64,000 nt of DNA from Bradyrhizobium sp. Its GTDB lineage: Bacteria > Pseudomonadota > Alphaproteobacteria > Rhizobiales > Xanthobacteraceae. The notes below the pieces were generated by a model that saw only the letters and a list, made by a program, of their open reading frames with translations, was not told where the DNA came from and searched no databases. Where the stretch lies: assembly GCF_027451485.1 (NCBI RefSeq), contig NZ_DAIDJE010000114.1, positions 1-64,000 on the forward strand, given 5' to 3'. Position 1 is the stretch's first letter. Every line of letters begins with the position of its first letter. This document shows, piece by piece, positions 16,393-22,620 of the stretch. Made by a program: the position numbers and the translations under genes.

Positions 16393-16878
16393 TTAACGCT
16401 GCCTTTGCGCGCTCCTGAATTGACGCAGGATGCCGACCAGGGTGGGTCCAATCGCGCTGAGCTCTTCCAGGTGAATTGCCGAAAGCGCTTGCAGTCTGCG
16501 CTCGCCGCGCGCCGTCAACTGCAGGAGAACGCGCCGGCCATCCCGGGCATCGACGCTTCGCTTGATCAGGCCGAGCCTTTTCATGCGGGTGGCCAGTTCG
16601 ACCGCAGTGTGATGCCGGATCAGCAGCGCCTGCGCGAGGTCGCCAACCGACGTGAGTTCGGATCCGGCAAACCCTTTGATCGCGAGCAGGGCCTGATGCT
16701 GTTGCGGCGTCAATCCCTGCCGCATCGCAGCCGTCGCGCTGAAGGCGAGAAACACCCGCAGCTGGTAGCGGAATCTGGCCAGCGCCTGGTAGTCCACTGC
16801 GCGAGCCTTTCCGTTGCGTCTCGTCTTGGTCCCGCCTGACCGTGCCGGCGCCTTGGCTCGCCGCCTGGATTTGGCCAT
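16393..16878 (-). CDS. MarR family transcriptional regulator
   Basis: The 161-residue protein has a Lys/Arg-rich N-terminal tail, then a MarR winged helix: LTPQQHQALLAIKG, VGDLAQALLIRHHTAVELAT and the wing KRSVDARDGRRVLLQLTARG. MarR proteins usually repress adjacent genes and release DNA on binding a small ligand. It lies convergent to prfA and upstream of, but opposite to, the ABC importer genes, which makes that importer one candidate target. This is inference. Confidence 0.85.
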   Translation of the reverse strand: MAKSRRRAKAPARSGGTKTRRNGKARAVDYQALARFRYQLRVFLAFSATAAMRQGLTPQQHQALLAIKGFAGSELTSVGDLAQALLIRHHTAVELATRMKRLGLIKRSVDARDGRRVLLQLTARGERRLQALSAIHLEELSAIGPTLVGILRQFRSAQRQR

Positions 16879-16984: not shown

Positions 16985-17485
16985 TCAGGGGAACGGCGGA
17001 GGGTCGTAGGTCGAGCTCAATATCTCCAGAAGAATGATCTGGAAGGCAACCGGGATCCGGACGCTCTTGCGGCGAATCGACTTTTCCAAGGCTTCGGTGA
17101 TTTCGGCCCGCGTGAGTTTTCCGGCCGACGCACGCGCCGCCAGGCTGCGCCAGACCTCGGATAGCGGCTTGCCACGATGGAGCGGTGACTGGATCGCGAC
17201 TCCCCTGGCGAGAGCCCAGTCGATGATTTCCCGAGCCGTCTGCGGTCCGCAGTTGCGGGCGGTCGCCAGATGCCGGCCTGTCAGCTGTCGAAGAAGGTCA
17301 TCAGGAGGCACCCAGGTGCCCTTTGGCGGCTCTTCGCCGATCAGTTCGGGCGCCAGTTCCTTCAGCACGTTGAGCGCACGAACGCTCAAACTCCCAGACG
17401 GCGAGGCGGAGGCCTTCTCGCCGCAGGGCGTGGTCGCTTCTTCCAAAGCGCTGTTTCGACTATCGGCCTGCCGGTTTCGGTCCAT
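16985..17485 (-). CDS. Stand-alone RNA polymerase alpha C-terminal-domain-like protein
   Basis: Residues 33-97 of this 166-residue protein resemble the alpha subunit C-terminal domain. LSVRALNVLKEL parallels the LSVRTLNCLK segment of RpoA, and NCGPQTAREIIDWALARGV parallels the helix-hairpin-helix NFGRKSLNEI. The alpha N-terminal dimerisation domain is absent. A C-terminal extension (about residues 105-166) carries ASAGKLTRAEITEALEKSIR and a hydrophobic stretch, with no family I recognise. It ends 106 bases from the MarR start, on the same strand. Role unknown; it could bind DNA or a transcription factor in the way alpha-CTD does. Confidence 0.6.
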   Translation of the reverse strand: MDRNRQADSRNSALEEATTPCGEKASASPSGSLSVRALNVLKELAPELIGEEPPKGTWVPPDDLLRQLTGRHLATARNCGPQTAREIIDWALARGVAIQSPLHRGKPLSEVWRSLAARASAGKLTRAEITEALEKSIRRKSVRIPVAFQIILLEILSSTYDPPPFP

Positions 17486-17722
17486 AGGCTCGCATTTGCG
17501 ACGTGGGGGTGAGCATCGTTCAGCGGTGGAGTCGAGATATACCGAATGTTGATCTTATCGCAACGTCCTTCGACCAAAGTGACATTGACAGAACAGCTGG
17601 GAGCGCAATTCTAACGGCAACACAGCTGCGCCATGCAGCTCAGGATGCGAAAGCCGATCGCCGATACGGGCGGTGGGCTCGTATGCGCAACGATAATCAC
17701 CAATCACGGAGGAGACCGAACA

Positions 17723-19078
17723 ATGAATACGAAGGAGTTGCGCCAGCAAATGAGACGGGGCGTGTCGCGTCGGAGCTTGCTTCAGGCCGGAGCCGGTCTG
17801 GCGGGCGGCGCCCTGTTGCCGACTTCAATGGTCATGCCGGTCTATGCCGAGGACCATGCGGCGATCGGCACCTATCCAGCCGGCTCGTCGGGCTCTTCCG
17901 TATTCATCGGAATCTCCGTCCCCCGCACCGGGACGTATGCAGTGCAAGGAGAGGATGAGCTCAAGGGCTATCAGCTCGCGATCGAACACATCAACAGCGG
18001 CAACGAACTGATCAAGAAGATCTCGCCGAAAACCACCAAGGGCGTGCTCGGCAAGGAACTGAAGTTTGGTGTCGCCGACTCCGCCGCCAAGCCGAACGAA
18101 GCGGTGCAAGCGCAACAGCGCTTCATCAGCGAGAACAAGGCGATCATGATCACCGGCGGCACGTCCAGCGCGGTGGCGGTAGCGCTGAACAAGCTGGCGC
18201 AGCGCGAGAAGGTCCTCTTTGTCTGCGGCATCTCCGGCTCCAACGACACGACCGGCAAGGATTGCGTGCGCTACGGCTTCCGCCAGAATTTCTTCGGTCA
18301 GACCGCCGCGGCGGCGATTGCGCCGGTGCTGGTCAAGCAGTTCGGAAAGAACAAGAAGGCAGCCTATCTGACGCCGGACTACACCTACGGCCACACCGTC
18401 ACCAAGTCGATGCAGGATCACCTCTCGGAGGCGGGCTGGACTACGGTTACCAACCAGGTTTCACCTTTGGGCGCGCCGGATTACTCGTCCTATCTCCTCA
18501 ACGTCGCGAACTCCGGCGCCGACGTGCTGATCAACGTCAACTGGGGCCATGACGCAGTTCTCTCGATCCAGCAGGCGAAGCAGTTCGGCGTGCTCGACAA
18601 GATGAAGCTGGTCGTTCCCTATCAGGTGCCGTTCGTCGCGCGCGAAACCGGGGGCCTTATGCAGGGCGTCTATGCAGCAACTGACTATTGGTGGACGATC
18701 GAGGACAAATACCCGCTCGCCAAGATGTTCAACGATGAGTTCAGCAAGAAGTACGGCTACAAACCGGAATGGGGCGCCGAGAATGCCTACATCAGCTTTG
18801 CGCACTGGGCGCGGATGGTCGAGGAAGCCGGCACCTTCTACCCGCCGGATGTAATCAAGACCTATGAGAAGGGCGAAACTCTCCCCTCCTTCGTCGGCGA
18901 CGTCCACTATCGCGCCGAAGATCACCAATGCATACGCCCTGTGATCATCGTCAGGGGCAAGATGGACAAGGACATGAAGAACAAGGAAGACTATTACGAC
19001 ATCATAGAGATCGTCCCCGGCGAGGGACTGATGCAGAAGCCCGACGCCTTCGGCTGCCATCTCGGCGATTATACTTGA
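17723..19078 (+). CDS. ABC transporter substrate-binding protein, branched-chain amino-acid/amide type, Tat-exported
   Basis: The start at 17723 has a strong GGAGGAGA ribosome-binding site. The 451-residue precursor carries a twin-arginine signal: SRRSLLQAGAGLAGGALL follows R16-R17, with cleavage expected near VYAED. The mature part is a Peripla_BP_6-type fold with IGISVPRTGTYAVQGEDELK, ITGGTSSAVAVALNK and YLTPDYTYGHTVTKSM. Such proteins deliver branched-chain amino acids, amides or aromatic compounds to LivHMGF-type importers. The permeases and ATPases follow directly. The substrate is not determinable by eye. Confidence 0.9.
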   Translation: MNTKELRQQMRRGVSRRSLLQAGAGLAGGALLPTSMVMPVYAEDHAAIGTYPAGSSGSSVFIGISVPRTGTYAVQGEDELKGYQLAIEHINSGNELIKKISPKTTKGVLGKELKFGVADSAAKPNEAVQAQQRFISENKAIMITGGTSSAVAVALNKLAQREKVLFVCGISGSNDTTGKDCVRYGFRQNFFGQTAAAAIAPVLVKQFGKNKKAAYLTPDYTYGHTVTKSMQDHLSEAGWTTVTNQVSPLGAPDYSSYLLNVANSGADVLINVNWGHDAVLSIQQAKQFGVLDKMKLVVPYQVPFVARETGGLMQGVYAATDYWWTIEDKYPLAKMFNDEFSKKYGYKPEWGAENAYISFAHWARMVEEAGTFYPPDVIKTYEKGETLPSFVGDVHYRAEDHQCIRPVIIVRGKMDKDMKNKEDYYDIIEIVPGEGLMQKPDAFGCHLGDYT

Positions 19079-19167: not shown

Positions 19168-20043
19168 ATGATTAACTGGCCAAATTTCGTCTCGCAGCTT
19201 TTCAACGGGCTGGCGCTCGGCGCGCTGCTCGCGCTCATCAGCTCCGGCTTGACGATCATCTATGGCACGCTCGGCGTTCTTAACCTCGCGCATGGCGCGA
19301 TGTTCATGCTTGGCGGCTACGCCGGGTACGTCGCTTTTGGATATACGCATTCCTTCATCATTGCCGTCATCGCCGGCTCCCTTTTCGTGATGGTGGTTGG
19401 CATCGTGATGGAGCGCGTCATCATCCGGCACTTCTATCAGCGCCCGCACGAAGATCAGCTGCTGGTGACCTTTGGTCTCGGCATCTGCTTCGTCGAGATC
19501 GTGCGCCTCCTGTTCGGCAGCCAGTCGCAGATGGTGCCTCCGCCATCCATGTTGCAGGGCATCACCTCGCTCGGCTTCATGTTTTATCCGACCTACCGCC
19601 TCGCGGTTGTCGGCATCGTTGCCGTCGCTCTCAGCGTCCTGTTCATCGTGCTGTACCGCACCAGACTGGGGATGATCGTCCGCGCCGGGATCGAAGATTC
19701 AGTCATGGTCGATTCGCTCGGCATCAACGTCTTCCGCGTTTTCATGATCGTGTTCGGGATTGGCGCGATGGCGGCGGGCTTTGCCGGCATCATCAACGCG
19801 CCCGTGGTGTCGCTGACGCCGGGCGTCGGCGACGACATCCTGGTGGAGACCTTCGTTGTGGTGGTGATCGGCGGTGTCGGCTCATTCCCCGGCGCGATTC
19901 TCGGCGGCCTGATCGCAGGCGAAATCATCAGTATCACCTCCATGTTCAACCCGAGCTATGCCTACGTCATGTTGTTTGCTGCAATGACGCTTGTGCTGGT
20001 GCTACGGCCGCACGGCCTGCTTGGTACACAGGGCCGCGAATGA
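19168..20043 (+). CDS. Branched-chain amino-acid type ABC transporter permease (LivH family)
   Basis: The 291-residue membrane protein has about eight hydrophobic segments and the LivH hallmarks LALGALLALISSGLTIIYGT, LNLAHGAMFMLGGY and GGVGSFPGAILGGLIAGEI. It forms half of the transmembrane channel of the importer with the LivM-like part of the next gene. The gene ends 13 bases before the fused permease-ATPase start. Confidence 0.92.
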   Translation: MINWPNFVSQLFNGLALGALLALISSGLTIIYGTLGVLNLAHGAMFMLGGYAGYVAFGYTHSFIIAVIAGSLFVMVVGIVMERVIIRHFYQRPHEDQLLVTFGLGICFVEIVRLLFGSQSQMVPPPSMLQGITSLGFMFYPTYRLAVVGIVAVALSVLFIVLYRTRLGMIVRAGIEDSVMVDSLGINVFRVFMIVFGIGAMAAGFAGIINAPVVSLTPGVGDDILVETFVVVVIGGVGSFPGAILGGLIAGEIISITSMFNPSYAYVMLFAAMTLVLVLRPHGLLGTQGRE

Positions 20044-20056
20044 GAGCGCTTTTGTC

Positions 20057-21925
20057 ATGCTGAAACAGCGACCCTTCCTGATCGAAGCCCTGACGGCAGC
20101 CGGACTGATCGCCGCGCCGTTTCTGTTGCCGCTGATCGGCTTTGCGCCCAATACCGCCAACCGGATTCTGGTCTGGGGCCTGTTCGGGCTCGGCTTCGAT
20201 ATTCTCTTCGGTTTCACTGGCCTGTTGTCGTTCGGCCAGTCGGCATTTTACGGCACGGGCGGCTTTGTCGCCGCGTACCTCCTGACCCAGGCTGGATTTC
20301 CCAATGTCGTGCTGGCGCTCATCATCGGCATGATTGCAGCGGCGGCTGTCGGCTACCTGGTCGGCCTGATCGCGTTGCGCCGCACCGGCATCTACTTCGC
20401 CATGATCACCGTTGCCATCGCGGAGGTGTTCTTCTTCGTCGAATTCAATCCCCTGGCGGACTGGACGGGTGGTGAGAACGGATTGCCGGGCGTGCCGACA
20501 CCGAGCTTCAATCTCGGCTTCACCACGATTCATTTCACGAGCGGCTGGTCGCTCTACCCATTCCTGGCGTTCTGCTACTTCGTTGGAATCGTCGTCGCGC
20601 TGCGTATTGTGCGTTCTCCGGTTGGCGCCGTCTTCCGCGCCATCCGCGACAATCCGCTGCGCGCGACCGCGGTCGGCCATAACATCCACGGCTATAAGCT
20701 GACGGCCTTCGTGATTGCCGCGGCCTATGCCGGATTTGCCGGCGGCCTGCTTGGCGTCCTGCAGGCGTTCATGCCGCCTGATGCCTTTACGTTCGATACC
20801 TCCGGACAACTCGTGATGCAGACGGCGATCGGCGGCCGCGCAACGCTGTTTGGCCCCCTGGTCGGCGCGGCCGTGTGGCTTTCCTTGCAGGATTTCCTGC
20901 AAGCTACTCTCGGGCTGGGTGCTGCCTGGAAGCTCGTGCTCGGCATCGTGTTCGTGCTGCTGGTCTGCTTTCTCCGGAATGGGATCATCGGCGGCATCGC
21001 GACCCTCTACGACGTTGCAACCGGCAAGCGTTCTGCTTCGCTGTCGAAGGAGGCGCTCCCCGCCACGAGCGAACCTGCCCGAGAAGAGCCTGTCGCCGAG
21101 GCGCGTCCTGCGCCGCAGCCGGATACGCCGCCGTTGCATCTTGAGGATCGAAACCCAGCCGAGCCCATCCTGCAAGCGAAGGGTCTGACCAAGCGTTACG
21201 GCGGCCTGGTCGCCAATAGCGATATCGACTTTACGGTCAACCGGGGCGAGTTGCGCGGCATCATCGGCCCAAACGGCGCCGGCAAGTCGACTTTCTTCAA
21301 GATGCTGACCTGTGAAGTTCCTCCGAGCTCCGGCACCATCCTGTTCGAGGGCCGCGATATCACCGGGATGACGGTCACCGATGTCTGCCAGCTGGGCTTG
21401 ACCAAGAGCTATCAGGTCAATCAACTGTTCGCAGGCCTTACCGTCCGCGAAAACCTAACCATCGCAGCGCTTTCCGCGTTGCGGGGCAAATTTCGCCTCG
21501 ACCTGTTCCGGACGATCCAGAACATCCCCGGGCTCCCCGAACGCGTGGAGCAAACGCTCGATCTGGTCAATTTGACGTCACGGCCGGATACTCCGGTTTC
21601 AGAGCTCGCCTATGGCGAAAAGCGGCGCCTGGAAATCGGGCTCGCGCTCGCCACCTCGCCGAGCCTGCTGCTGCTGGATGAGCCGCTTGCCGGCATGAGC
21701 CCGCGCGAGCGGGTGGAAACGGTGAAGCTGCTCAAATCGATCAGCCAGGGCCGCACCATGATCATCATCGACCACGACATGGACGCGCTGTTCGAACTCG
21801 CCGAGCGCGTAACGGTGCTGCAAGAGGGCCGCGTGCTGGTGGAGGGAACGCCCCAGGAGATCAAGAACAACACGACCGTCCAGGAGGCTTATCTGGGCGG
21901 GGTGCACGGAGTGCTCGCCGCATGA
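20057..21925 (+). CDS. Fused ABC transporter permease (LivM) and ATP-binding protein (LivG)
   Basis: The start at ATG 20057 (MLKQRPFLIEALTAAG) gives 622 residues; an upstream in-frame ATG lies inside the LivH gene. Residues 1 to about 330 are a LivM-like permease (GFTGLLSFGQSAFYGTGGF). An Ala/Pro/Glu-rich linker covers about 330-370, and the rest is a LivG-type ATPase with Walker A GPNGAGKS near residue 403, an atypical signature loop LAYGEKRRLEIGLA and Walker B LLLLDEP. The fusion fixes a 1:1 ratio of LivM and LivG. It overlaps the following ATPase gene by 4 bases. Confidence 0.92.
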   Translation: MLKQRPFLIEALTAAGLIAAPFLLPLIGFAPNTANRILVWGLFGLGFDILFGFTGLLSFGQSAFYGTGGFVAAYLLTQAGFPNVVLALIIGMIAAAAVGYLVGLIALRRTGIYFAMITVAIAEVFFFVEFNPLADWTGGENGLPGVPTPSFNLGFTTIHFTSGWSLYPFLAFCYFVGIVVALRIVRSPVGAVFRAIRDNPLRATAVGHNIHGYKLTAFVIAAAYAGFAGGLLGVLQAFMPPDAFTFDTSGQLVMQTAIGGRATLFGPLVGAAVWLSLQDFLQATLGLGAAWKLVLGIVFVLLVCFLRNGIIGGIATLYDVATGKRSASLSKEALPATSEPAREEPVAEARPAPQPDTPPLHLEDRNPAEPILQAKGLTKRYGGLVANSDIDFTVNRGELRGIIGPNGAGKSTFFKMLTCEVPPSSGTILFEGRDITGMTVTDVCQLGLTKSYQVNQLFAGLTVRENLTIAALSALRGKFRLDLFRTIQNIPGLPERVEQTLDLVNLTSRPDTPVSELAYGEKRRLEIGLALATSPSLLLLDEPLAGMSPRERVETVKLLKSISQGRTMIIIDHDMDALFELAERVTVLQEGRVLVEGTPQEIKNNTTVQEAYLGGVHGVLAA

Positions 21926-22620
21926 GCTTGCTCGAAGTCAATGGCTTGAACAGCTATTATGGGGATTCCCATATCCTCTTCGATGTCTCCATGCGGGTCG
22001 AGCGCAACGAGGTGGTGGCGTTATTGGGCCGCAACGGCGCCGGCAAGAGCACGACGCTGAAAAGCCTGATGGGCGTGGTGACGCCGAGGGCCGGTTCGAT
22101 TGTCTTTGATGGCGCCGATGTGGCGGGCCGAAAGAGCCACAAGATCGCCCAGGCCGGTATGCAGCTCGTCCACGAGGAACGCCGCATCTTCGGCAGCCTG
22201 AGCGTCGAGGAAAATCTCGTGCTCGCCGGAATTACCGCTTCCAAGCGTTGGCCGCTGGAGCGGATCTACGAGATGTTTCCTCGCCTGAAGGAGCGCCGGG
22301 CCAATCGCGGCACCGACCTTTCGGGCGGCGAGCAGCAGATGCTCGCCATCGCCCGCGCCCTGATCCGCGATCCAAAGATCATTCTGCTCGATGAGCCGTT
22401 CGAGGGCCTGGCACCGGTCATCGTGCGGGATCTCATGACCGCATGCCGCAATCTGGCCGCCGCCGGTCAGACCATCGTTCTGGTTGAACAGAACCTTGCC
22501 GCGACCCTTGCGCTCGCCCAGCGCATCTACATCATCAACAATGGACATATCGTTCACGAGGGGCCAGCGCAGGAGATCAAGGCGCAGCCTGAGGTTCTGC
22601 AACGATATCTCGGAGTTTAG
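21922..22620 (+). CDS. Branched-chain amino-acid type ABC transporter ATP-binding protein (LivF family)
   Basis: The 232-residue ATPase has Walker A GRNGAGKS near residue 36, signature LSGGEQQMLAIARAL and Walker B IILLDEPFEGLAP. It is the second nucleotide-binding subunit of the importer. The ATGA-type overlap (21922-21925) couples it to the fused permease-ATPase. The gene ends 25 bases from the convergent HIT gene. Confidence 0.93.
   Translation: MSLLEVNGLNSYYGDSHILFDVSMRVERNEVVALLGRNGAGKSTTLKSLMGVVTPRAGSIVFDGADVAGRKSHKIAQAGMQLVHEERRIFGSLSVEENLVLAGITASKRWPLERIYEMFPRLKERRANRGTDLSGGEQQMLAIARALIRDPKIILLDEPFEGLAPVIVRDLMTACRNLAAAGQTIVLVEQNLAATLALAQRIYIINNGHIVHEGPAQEIKAQPEVLQRYLGV

Follow-up and report, generated by a model that had tools for sequence, protein, structure and literature searches.

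The window, that is, the whole 64,000-nt stretch of Bradyrhizobium DNA analysed here, contains a stand-alone gene, which we call CTDL, whose product resembles the C-terminal domain of the RNA polymerase alpha subunit (alpha-CTD). The features of the locus are listed in Table 1. The placement given in a preliminary description of this DNA is correct: CTDL is followed on its own strand by a marR gene, and the genes of an ABC importer are divergent on the plus strand. The importer binding protein matches solely Liv/Urt-type and similar binding proteins in the PDB, and its score against the UrtA model is far under the cut-off. On the plasmid, the counterpart of the fused permease-ATPase gene carries the annotation 'branched-chain amino acid ABC transporter ATP-binding protein/permease'. 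Elsewhere in the window, between 54695 and 61456, ORFs resemble gyrB, recF, dnaN, and dnaA by eye, which suggests that the window lies near a replication origin.

Table 1. Positions of the genes, protein domains, and DNA sites at the CTDL locus, numbered from the first letter of the window.
Feature	Position	Strand	Remarks
MarR-family regulator	16393..16878	-	161 aa; PF12802, E 3e-13; 3' of CTDL, 106-bp gap
CTDL	16985..17485	-	166-aa stand-alone protein resembling alpha-CTD; starts with ATG, coordinates include the stop codon
C-terminal three-helix unit (predicted)	16988..17188	-	residues 100-166; no confident fold match
alpha-CTD-like domain	17189..17398	-	residues 30-99; AlphaFold model, Foldseek and VIA matches; PF03118 sub-threshold
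Divergent intergenic region, CTDL/importer operon	17486..17722	.	
Palindrome position of other loci	17531..17561	-	ATATCG-N5-CGATAT; decayed in the window, none at <=2 mismatches
Conserved box TTCGACCAAAGTGACATTGAC	17569..17589	+	runs into -35-like TTGACA of importer operon
Substrate-binding protein, Liv/Urt-type ABC importer	17723..19078	+	divergent from CTDL; PF13458, E 1.2e-68
LivH-like permease of importer	19168..20043	+	named by eye; conserved neighbour
Fused LivM/LivG-like permease-ATPase	20060..21925	+	named by eye
LivF-like ATPase	21922..22620	+	named by eye

The two motifs that had been noticed in the protein, LSVRALNVLKEL and NCGPQTAREII, are indeed present, at residues 33-44 and 78-88 of CTDL, and the reported lack of the alpha N-terminal dimerisation domain (alpha-NTD) holds, as 166 aa are too few to house it. 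The same genome has a separate frame of rpoA length (368 aa, contig C46; PF03118, E 6.7e-26). Homologues of CTDL were found in 12 of 60 genomes, counting its own (two of the 12 aligned stretches overrun a stop at the extreme end), and in 14 of 296 genomes of the family, its own again counted, where they fall into two genera. A wider search for relatives outside the family found CTDL in 5 of the 397 genomes sampled from the order and in 3 of the 398 from the phylum, and every carrier belongs to the genus of the window; these sets were sampled at one genome per species, and other carriers are possible. Named records contributed 49 CTDL loci, for the most part from Bradyrhizobium, plus Afipia and other MAGs; these loci overlap partly in organism with the 60-genome set, and most were retrieved by patterns on alpha-CTD-type motifs. 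One strain has two copies (L050 and L051).

CTDL is clearly a real gene under purifying selection. Its median dN/dS is 0.10 (range 0.025-0.154), calculated from the LSVRA motif onward in 18 hand-picked pairs, and the median for MarR in the same pairs is 0.17. Frameshifts interrupt two of the 49 copies (L028 and L065), which indicates that loss of CTDL is possible if they do not stem from sequencing errors. Longer frames precede the domain in other copies; the annotated plasmid copy has 204 aa and, as the sole annotated record examined, carries the label 'hypothetical protein'. A phage or viral origin of CTDL was rejected because a search of IMG/VR, made with one query and reaching close relatives only, returned no relative. 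CTDL relatives are also absent from 50,697 phage records, and PHROG gave a single weak match (E 0.18) from one of two CTDL queries. No description of a stand-alone alpha-CTD protein was found among the titles and abstract openings listed from the open-licence PMC literature.

We predicted the structure of CTDL with AlphaFold2 on alignment A2, which comprises 36 rows (the window CTDL and 35 homologues, with RpoA excluded); the predictor itself is trained on solved structures. The predicted helices of the domain span residues 35-49, 62-67, 70-75, and 81-93, and the block-mean pLDDT is 82-90 over residues 31-100, with an overall pLDDT of 69.9. When this model was searched with Foldseek, the first 28 PDB matches were all RNA polymerase alpha chains, going by their titles, lengths, and aligned ranges, with several coming from one entry; their E-values (0.26-2.7; probabilities 0.99-0.38) are not significant alone. 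The best VIA match, which alone would be middling, is to 1z3e_B (Z 7.1, rmsd 1.9 A over 56 residues), and E. coli alpha chains match mostly at Z 6-6.7 with 32% identity, residues 30-99 of the model lying on E. coli residues 259-315. Both halves of the alpha-CTD signature are aligned, in the correct order in hhalign and over matching ranges in the structure comparison. The argument for an alpha-CTD is carried by the uniform Foldseek list together with these ordered signature residues. Structure prediction, which had been proposed as a check against RpoA-CTD, returned an alpha-CTD-like fold and not another one, in a predicted model and not a solved structure.

The sequence comparisons give modest values. 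The window CTDL scores 16.2 bits (E 0.0085) against PF03118 (RNA_pol_A_CTD), below the curated Pfam cut-off of 23.8 bits. The likeness nevertheless extends past the two motifs, as the predicted fold also shows: across A2, PF03118 is matched at E <= 1 by 35 of the 36 members, the window included (best E 1.9e-4), and the next family by 14. Comparison of the CTDL and RpoA-CTD profiles gives P 0.034, with P 0.95 for the reversed control, and in HMMER the RpoA profile reaches E 0.013 at best among 36 CTDL sequences, the CTDL profile 0.032 among 30 RpoA sequences. The HH-suite probability between CTDL and RpoA-CTD is 0.8 of 100, with Neff below 2 on both sides. These direct comparisons are weak partly because the CTDL and RpoA profiles are both shallow. 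Searches of PDB sequences with CTDL retrieved no RpoA. CTDL is not a member of RpoA, because the alpha-NTD is absent; as a single sequence it stays under the Pfam cut-off, and it is alpha-CTD-like by its predicted fold and its residues. It is highly likely that the CTDL domain has an alpha-CTD-type fold, and residues 30-99 very probably represent an alpha-CTD-type domain of the RpoA kind.

We then compared the contact positions of the domain among the copies. CTDL positions are given in E. coli RpoA numbering. In alpha-CTD, N268, G296, S299, and E302 count among the DNA-contact positions, and E261 is the acidic sigma-contact residue. R265, N294, and K298 are named as DNA contacts of alpha-CTD in PMC5101437. 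Among the CTDL copies, 57 of 58 were readable (the frameshifted L028 was missed), corresponding to 46 distinct stretches. The counterparts of R265, N268, L270, K271, N294, G296, E302, and I303 are identical in 57/57 copies, the counterpart of S299 is T in 57/57, and that of C269 is V in 56/57. K is never kept at the K298 counterpart, which is H in 30 copies, Q in 21, and R in 6. The E261 counterpart is acidic in only 2/57 copies (L031 and L079) and is not acidic in the window copy, and the D259 counterpart is acidic in 1/57 (L078). The spacing between the counterparts of K271 and N294 is 36 in all 57 copies, compared to 23 in RpoA. This invariance is partly built in, because motif patterns found most of the loci and the counting script required the motifs. 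Eight copies from pattern-free whole-protein searches of the 60-genome and family sets show the same residues, and alignment A1, made from the 60-genome homologues alone, agrees on the conserved contact residues. Together with the motifs and the predicted fold, the conserved counterparts of DNA contacts support the earlier view of CTDL as an orphan alpha-CTD-like protein, a view qualified by the loss of K298 and by the window copy's score under the Pfam cut-off. In the preliminary description, such a domain could bind UP elements or compete for activators.

The C-terminal extension, previously described as unknown, does exist; it is conserved and is predicted with moderate confidence to form a three-helix unit. 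It has 11 invariant columns in 34 sequences, including W112, R138, R139, P145, and Q149. Fold searches with this unit (mean pLDDT 69) gave a best VIA Z of 5.6, to designed repeat proteins, and Foldseek E-values of 2.3 and worse.

The neighbourhood of CTDL is strongly conserved. The order binding protein-CTDL-marR, with the importer binding-protein gene divergent, is found in 49/49 CTDL loci. In 10 of the 49, prfA is not adjacent and the cassette is still intact. Ten proteins scanned next to displaced cassettes for hints to the substrate belong to mixed families with no common theme. The cassette of importer, CTDL, and marR also lies in the same order on a 641-kb conjugative plasmid of B. japonicum (L176; NZ_CP126014.1, 315307-331771). 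The 12 of 60 genomes with CTDL are exactly the 12 in which the importer binding protein is 83% or more identical, and two genomes of the 60 with a 50%-identity importer paralogue are without CTDL. In the family, 76 of 296 genomes match the importer protein at E <= 1e-100 and 14 have CTDL, which is present in every one of the 8 genomes from the window's genus whose importer protein is close (at least 87%) and in 6/11 of the second genus. A search of about 4.3 kb upstream at 20 CTDL-less importer loci detected marR (tblastn with the MarR of the window, E < 1e-3) and CTDL (best HMM E 0.52) at none of them. Because importer homologues occur without CTDL or MarR, CTDL is dispensable for the importer in general. 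In two genomes, G018 and G034, a MarR homologue (59% and 57%, respectively) adjoins prfA with no CTDL, and no importer protein was found at E <= 1e-100. These distributions indicate that CTDL tracks the importer within its own genus and that MarR can occur without both. The conserved linkage makes a role of CTDL in importer regulation likely, and we consider it fairly probable that CTDL takes part in controlling this Liv/Urt-type importer.

Two DNA sites in the divergent region were considered. The conserved box GTCAATGTCACTTTCGTCGAA is present within two edits in 16/50 CTDL loci and within four edits in 44/50. It was rejected as an operator of CTDL or MarR, since it also lies within two edits before 9/20 importer genes without CTDL and MarR; the same count assigns the box to the importer promoter and not to CTDL.

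The other site is a palindrome. Exact TATCG-N3-8-CGATA is found in 46/50 CTDL intergenic regions (the 49 loci and the window) compared to 0/20 CTDL-less regions, the motif having been picked after inspection of the sequences and the related loci not being independent. In mononucleotide shuffles of the CTDL regions, it occurs on average in 0.1 of 50 and at most in 2 of 50. With 300-base regions, the exact palindrome is found in 45/50 compared to 0/20, and the CTDL-less loci also give 0/20 at 600 bases. The form ATATCG-N5-CGATAT with up to two mismatches is found in 49/50 CTDL regions, with the window as the exception, and in 0/20 CTDL-less ones; the looser rule with N3-8 gives degenerate matches in 2/20 CTDL-less loci. 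The full 17-bp palindrome has 0-5 copies per genome in the 14 genomes scanned, some of them at other places, and lies at the CTDL locus in only 4/7 CTDL genomes (G002, G005, G015, where it occurs twice, and G027; not in G000, G009, and G010). At L043, the sole promoter-like match, GTGAAA-18-TATATT on the strand of CTDL, extends across the palindrome, where 0.2 are expected; a search of the window region for promoter-like matches gave none.

A gene for a ClC-type chloride channel (threshold E <= 1e-60) has a similar palindrome 114-181 bp before its aligned start in 8/8 genomes with this gene (L158-L165), of which five were known from the scan for the 17-bp form and three are new. In the genome of the window this copy has two mismatches. 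All eight genomes carry this MarR, which is present in 9 of the 12 genomes examined (G005 being without the ClC gene), and in G010 the gene of a second MarR (49-51% identity) is transcribed divergently to the ClC gene. The palindrome was rejected as a CTDL-only site because G018 and G034, two genomes with MarR and no CTDL, also have it before the ClC gene. Palindromes before the ClC gene in MarR-carrying genomes point to MarR as the candidate binder of the palindrome, and the ClC gene is possibly a second target of this MarR. In the window the palindrome is decayed, and control there may have shifted. It is also weakened in L017, the closest relative of the window among the named loci, and in the MarR of both, the likely recognition helix, assigned by eye, reads VELATRMKRL compared to VELVDRMAKL-like sequences in the others shown. 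The altered helix and the lost or weakened palindrome may together reflect a shift of the operator.

These observations can be assembled into a model. CTDL would have descended from, or be folded like, the alpha-CTD of RNA polymerase; it would retain most of the minor-groove DNA-binding surface, with the polymerase tether absent and the acidic sigma-touching residue mostly absent, and it has a 13-residue insertion and the predicted C-terminal three-helix unit. Its gene, just upstream of marR, would probably form one operon with it, and both proteins would act on the promoter region common with the divergent importer. A MarR dimer would occupy the palindrome, which belongs to the promoter of CTDL-marR and lies upstream of that of the importer. 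CTDL would bind the adjacent A/T-rich minor groove, with stabilisation from MarR or from self-association via its C-terminal unit, and would fill the landing place of the polymerase's own alpha-CTD. The importer promoter would then most likely be damped until a ligand of MarR, perhaps the imported compound, frees the CTDL-MarR pair. We consider the case evenly balanced for this reading as modelled, in which CTDL, as an alpha-CTD-like protein that binds DNA, partners MarR at the importer promoter and damps it by occlusion. Occlusion of the importer promoter by CTDL, taken as a claim of its own, is plausible but somewhat doubtful. A more far-reaching reading, which we rate as less likely than not, is that a part of the core transcription machinery was domesticated as a regulator of a single promoter: a free alpha-CTD, with no polymerase tether and mostly no sigma contact, would work alongside a MarR repressor as a 'decoy alpha-CTD' occupying the upstream landing site of polymerase at that importer promoter, and would move with the promoter as a cassette, in at least one case on a plasmid.

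Because CTDL has no alpha-NTD tether and its acidic sigma contact is mostly missing, it more likely blocks the upstream site than recruits polymerase. Activation of the importer by CTDL is accordingly unlikely in our estimate, as is the corresponding reading of CTDL as an activator or adaptor, a free alpha-CTD that recruits polymerase or MarR on upstream DNA, or contacts another regulator, and thereby raises importer expression. This reading draws on the same evidence of fold, residues, and linkage as occlusion does, and on the conserved upstream box in the importer promoter region; however, the usual routes by which alpha reaches polymerase and sigma are either absent or weak, and the box is also found within two edits at the CTDL-less loci described above.

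Alternatively, CTDL could act without binding DNA, as a protein ligand of MarR or RNA polymerase, for example a decoy that titrates an activator or a modulator of MarR. We regard this as improbable: the marR linkage in every one of the 49 loci and the invariant residues of the C-terminal unit, which could form an interaction surface, are consistent with it, but the counterparts of the DNA contacts, K298 aside, are among the most conserved positions, and MarR occurs without CTDL in G018 and G034. We give similarly little weight to CTDL as a convergent helix-hairpin-helix protein that binds DNA or RNA and is not descended from RpoA. The modest significance of the direct sequence comparisons would fit convergence, as would HHH_9, which is weakly matched by 2/36 A2 members, whereas the unbroken run of 28 alpha chains at the head of the fold matches and the ordered alignment of both signature halves argue against it.

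CTDL shares with the alpha-CTD of RpoA the order of helices and the signatures of LSVRxxNxLK and NxGxxTxxEI type. Unlike RpoA, it is without alpha-NTD or linker, has the extra C-terminal unit, a longer spacing between the signature halves, a lost K298, and a rarely acidic E261 counterpart, and it is encoded by an accessory gene alongside a separate rpoA. Palindromes in divergent promoter regions are usual for the MarR family, and the CTDL cassette resembles MarR systems with a divergent gene in having marR and such a palindrome; it differs from them in that CTDL, not marR, borders the divergent promoter. To our knowledge, no MarR system has an alpha-CTD-like partner. Spx and CAP complexes are among the PDB entries matched by the CTDL model, and DriD is another regulator contacting alpha-CTD (PMC12340889). 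Like Spx, CAP, and DriD, CTDL is proposed to act at the interface of alpha-CTD and upstream DNA; those three bind alpha-CTD, whereas CTDL resembles alpha-CTD itself.

The alpha-CTD is normally studied tethered to polymerase. If our preferred reading of CTDL as a DNA-binding partner of MarR is true, CTDL would be a natural untethered alpha-CTD acting in trans at one promoter and would show a core-enzyme domain turning into an ordinary regulator; it would also point to a role for a gene annotated 'hypothetical protein'. With a common promoter, clear mutable residues, and culturable rhizobia, CTDL is directly testable. Matches to RNA_pol_A_CTD near the cut-off were also seen in two other phylum genomes besides their rpoA, in frames of 1417 and 1457 aa (G362:C15:8556-8717 and G382:C118:10073-10237, respectively), as further non-RpoA homes of the domain.
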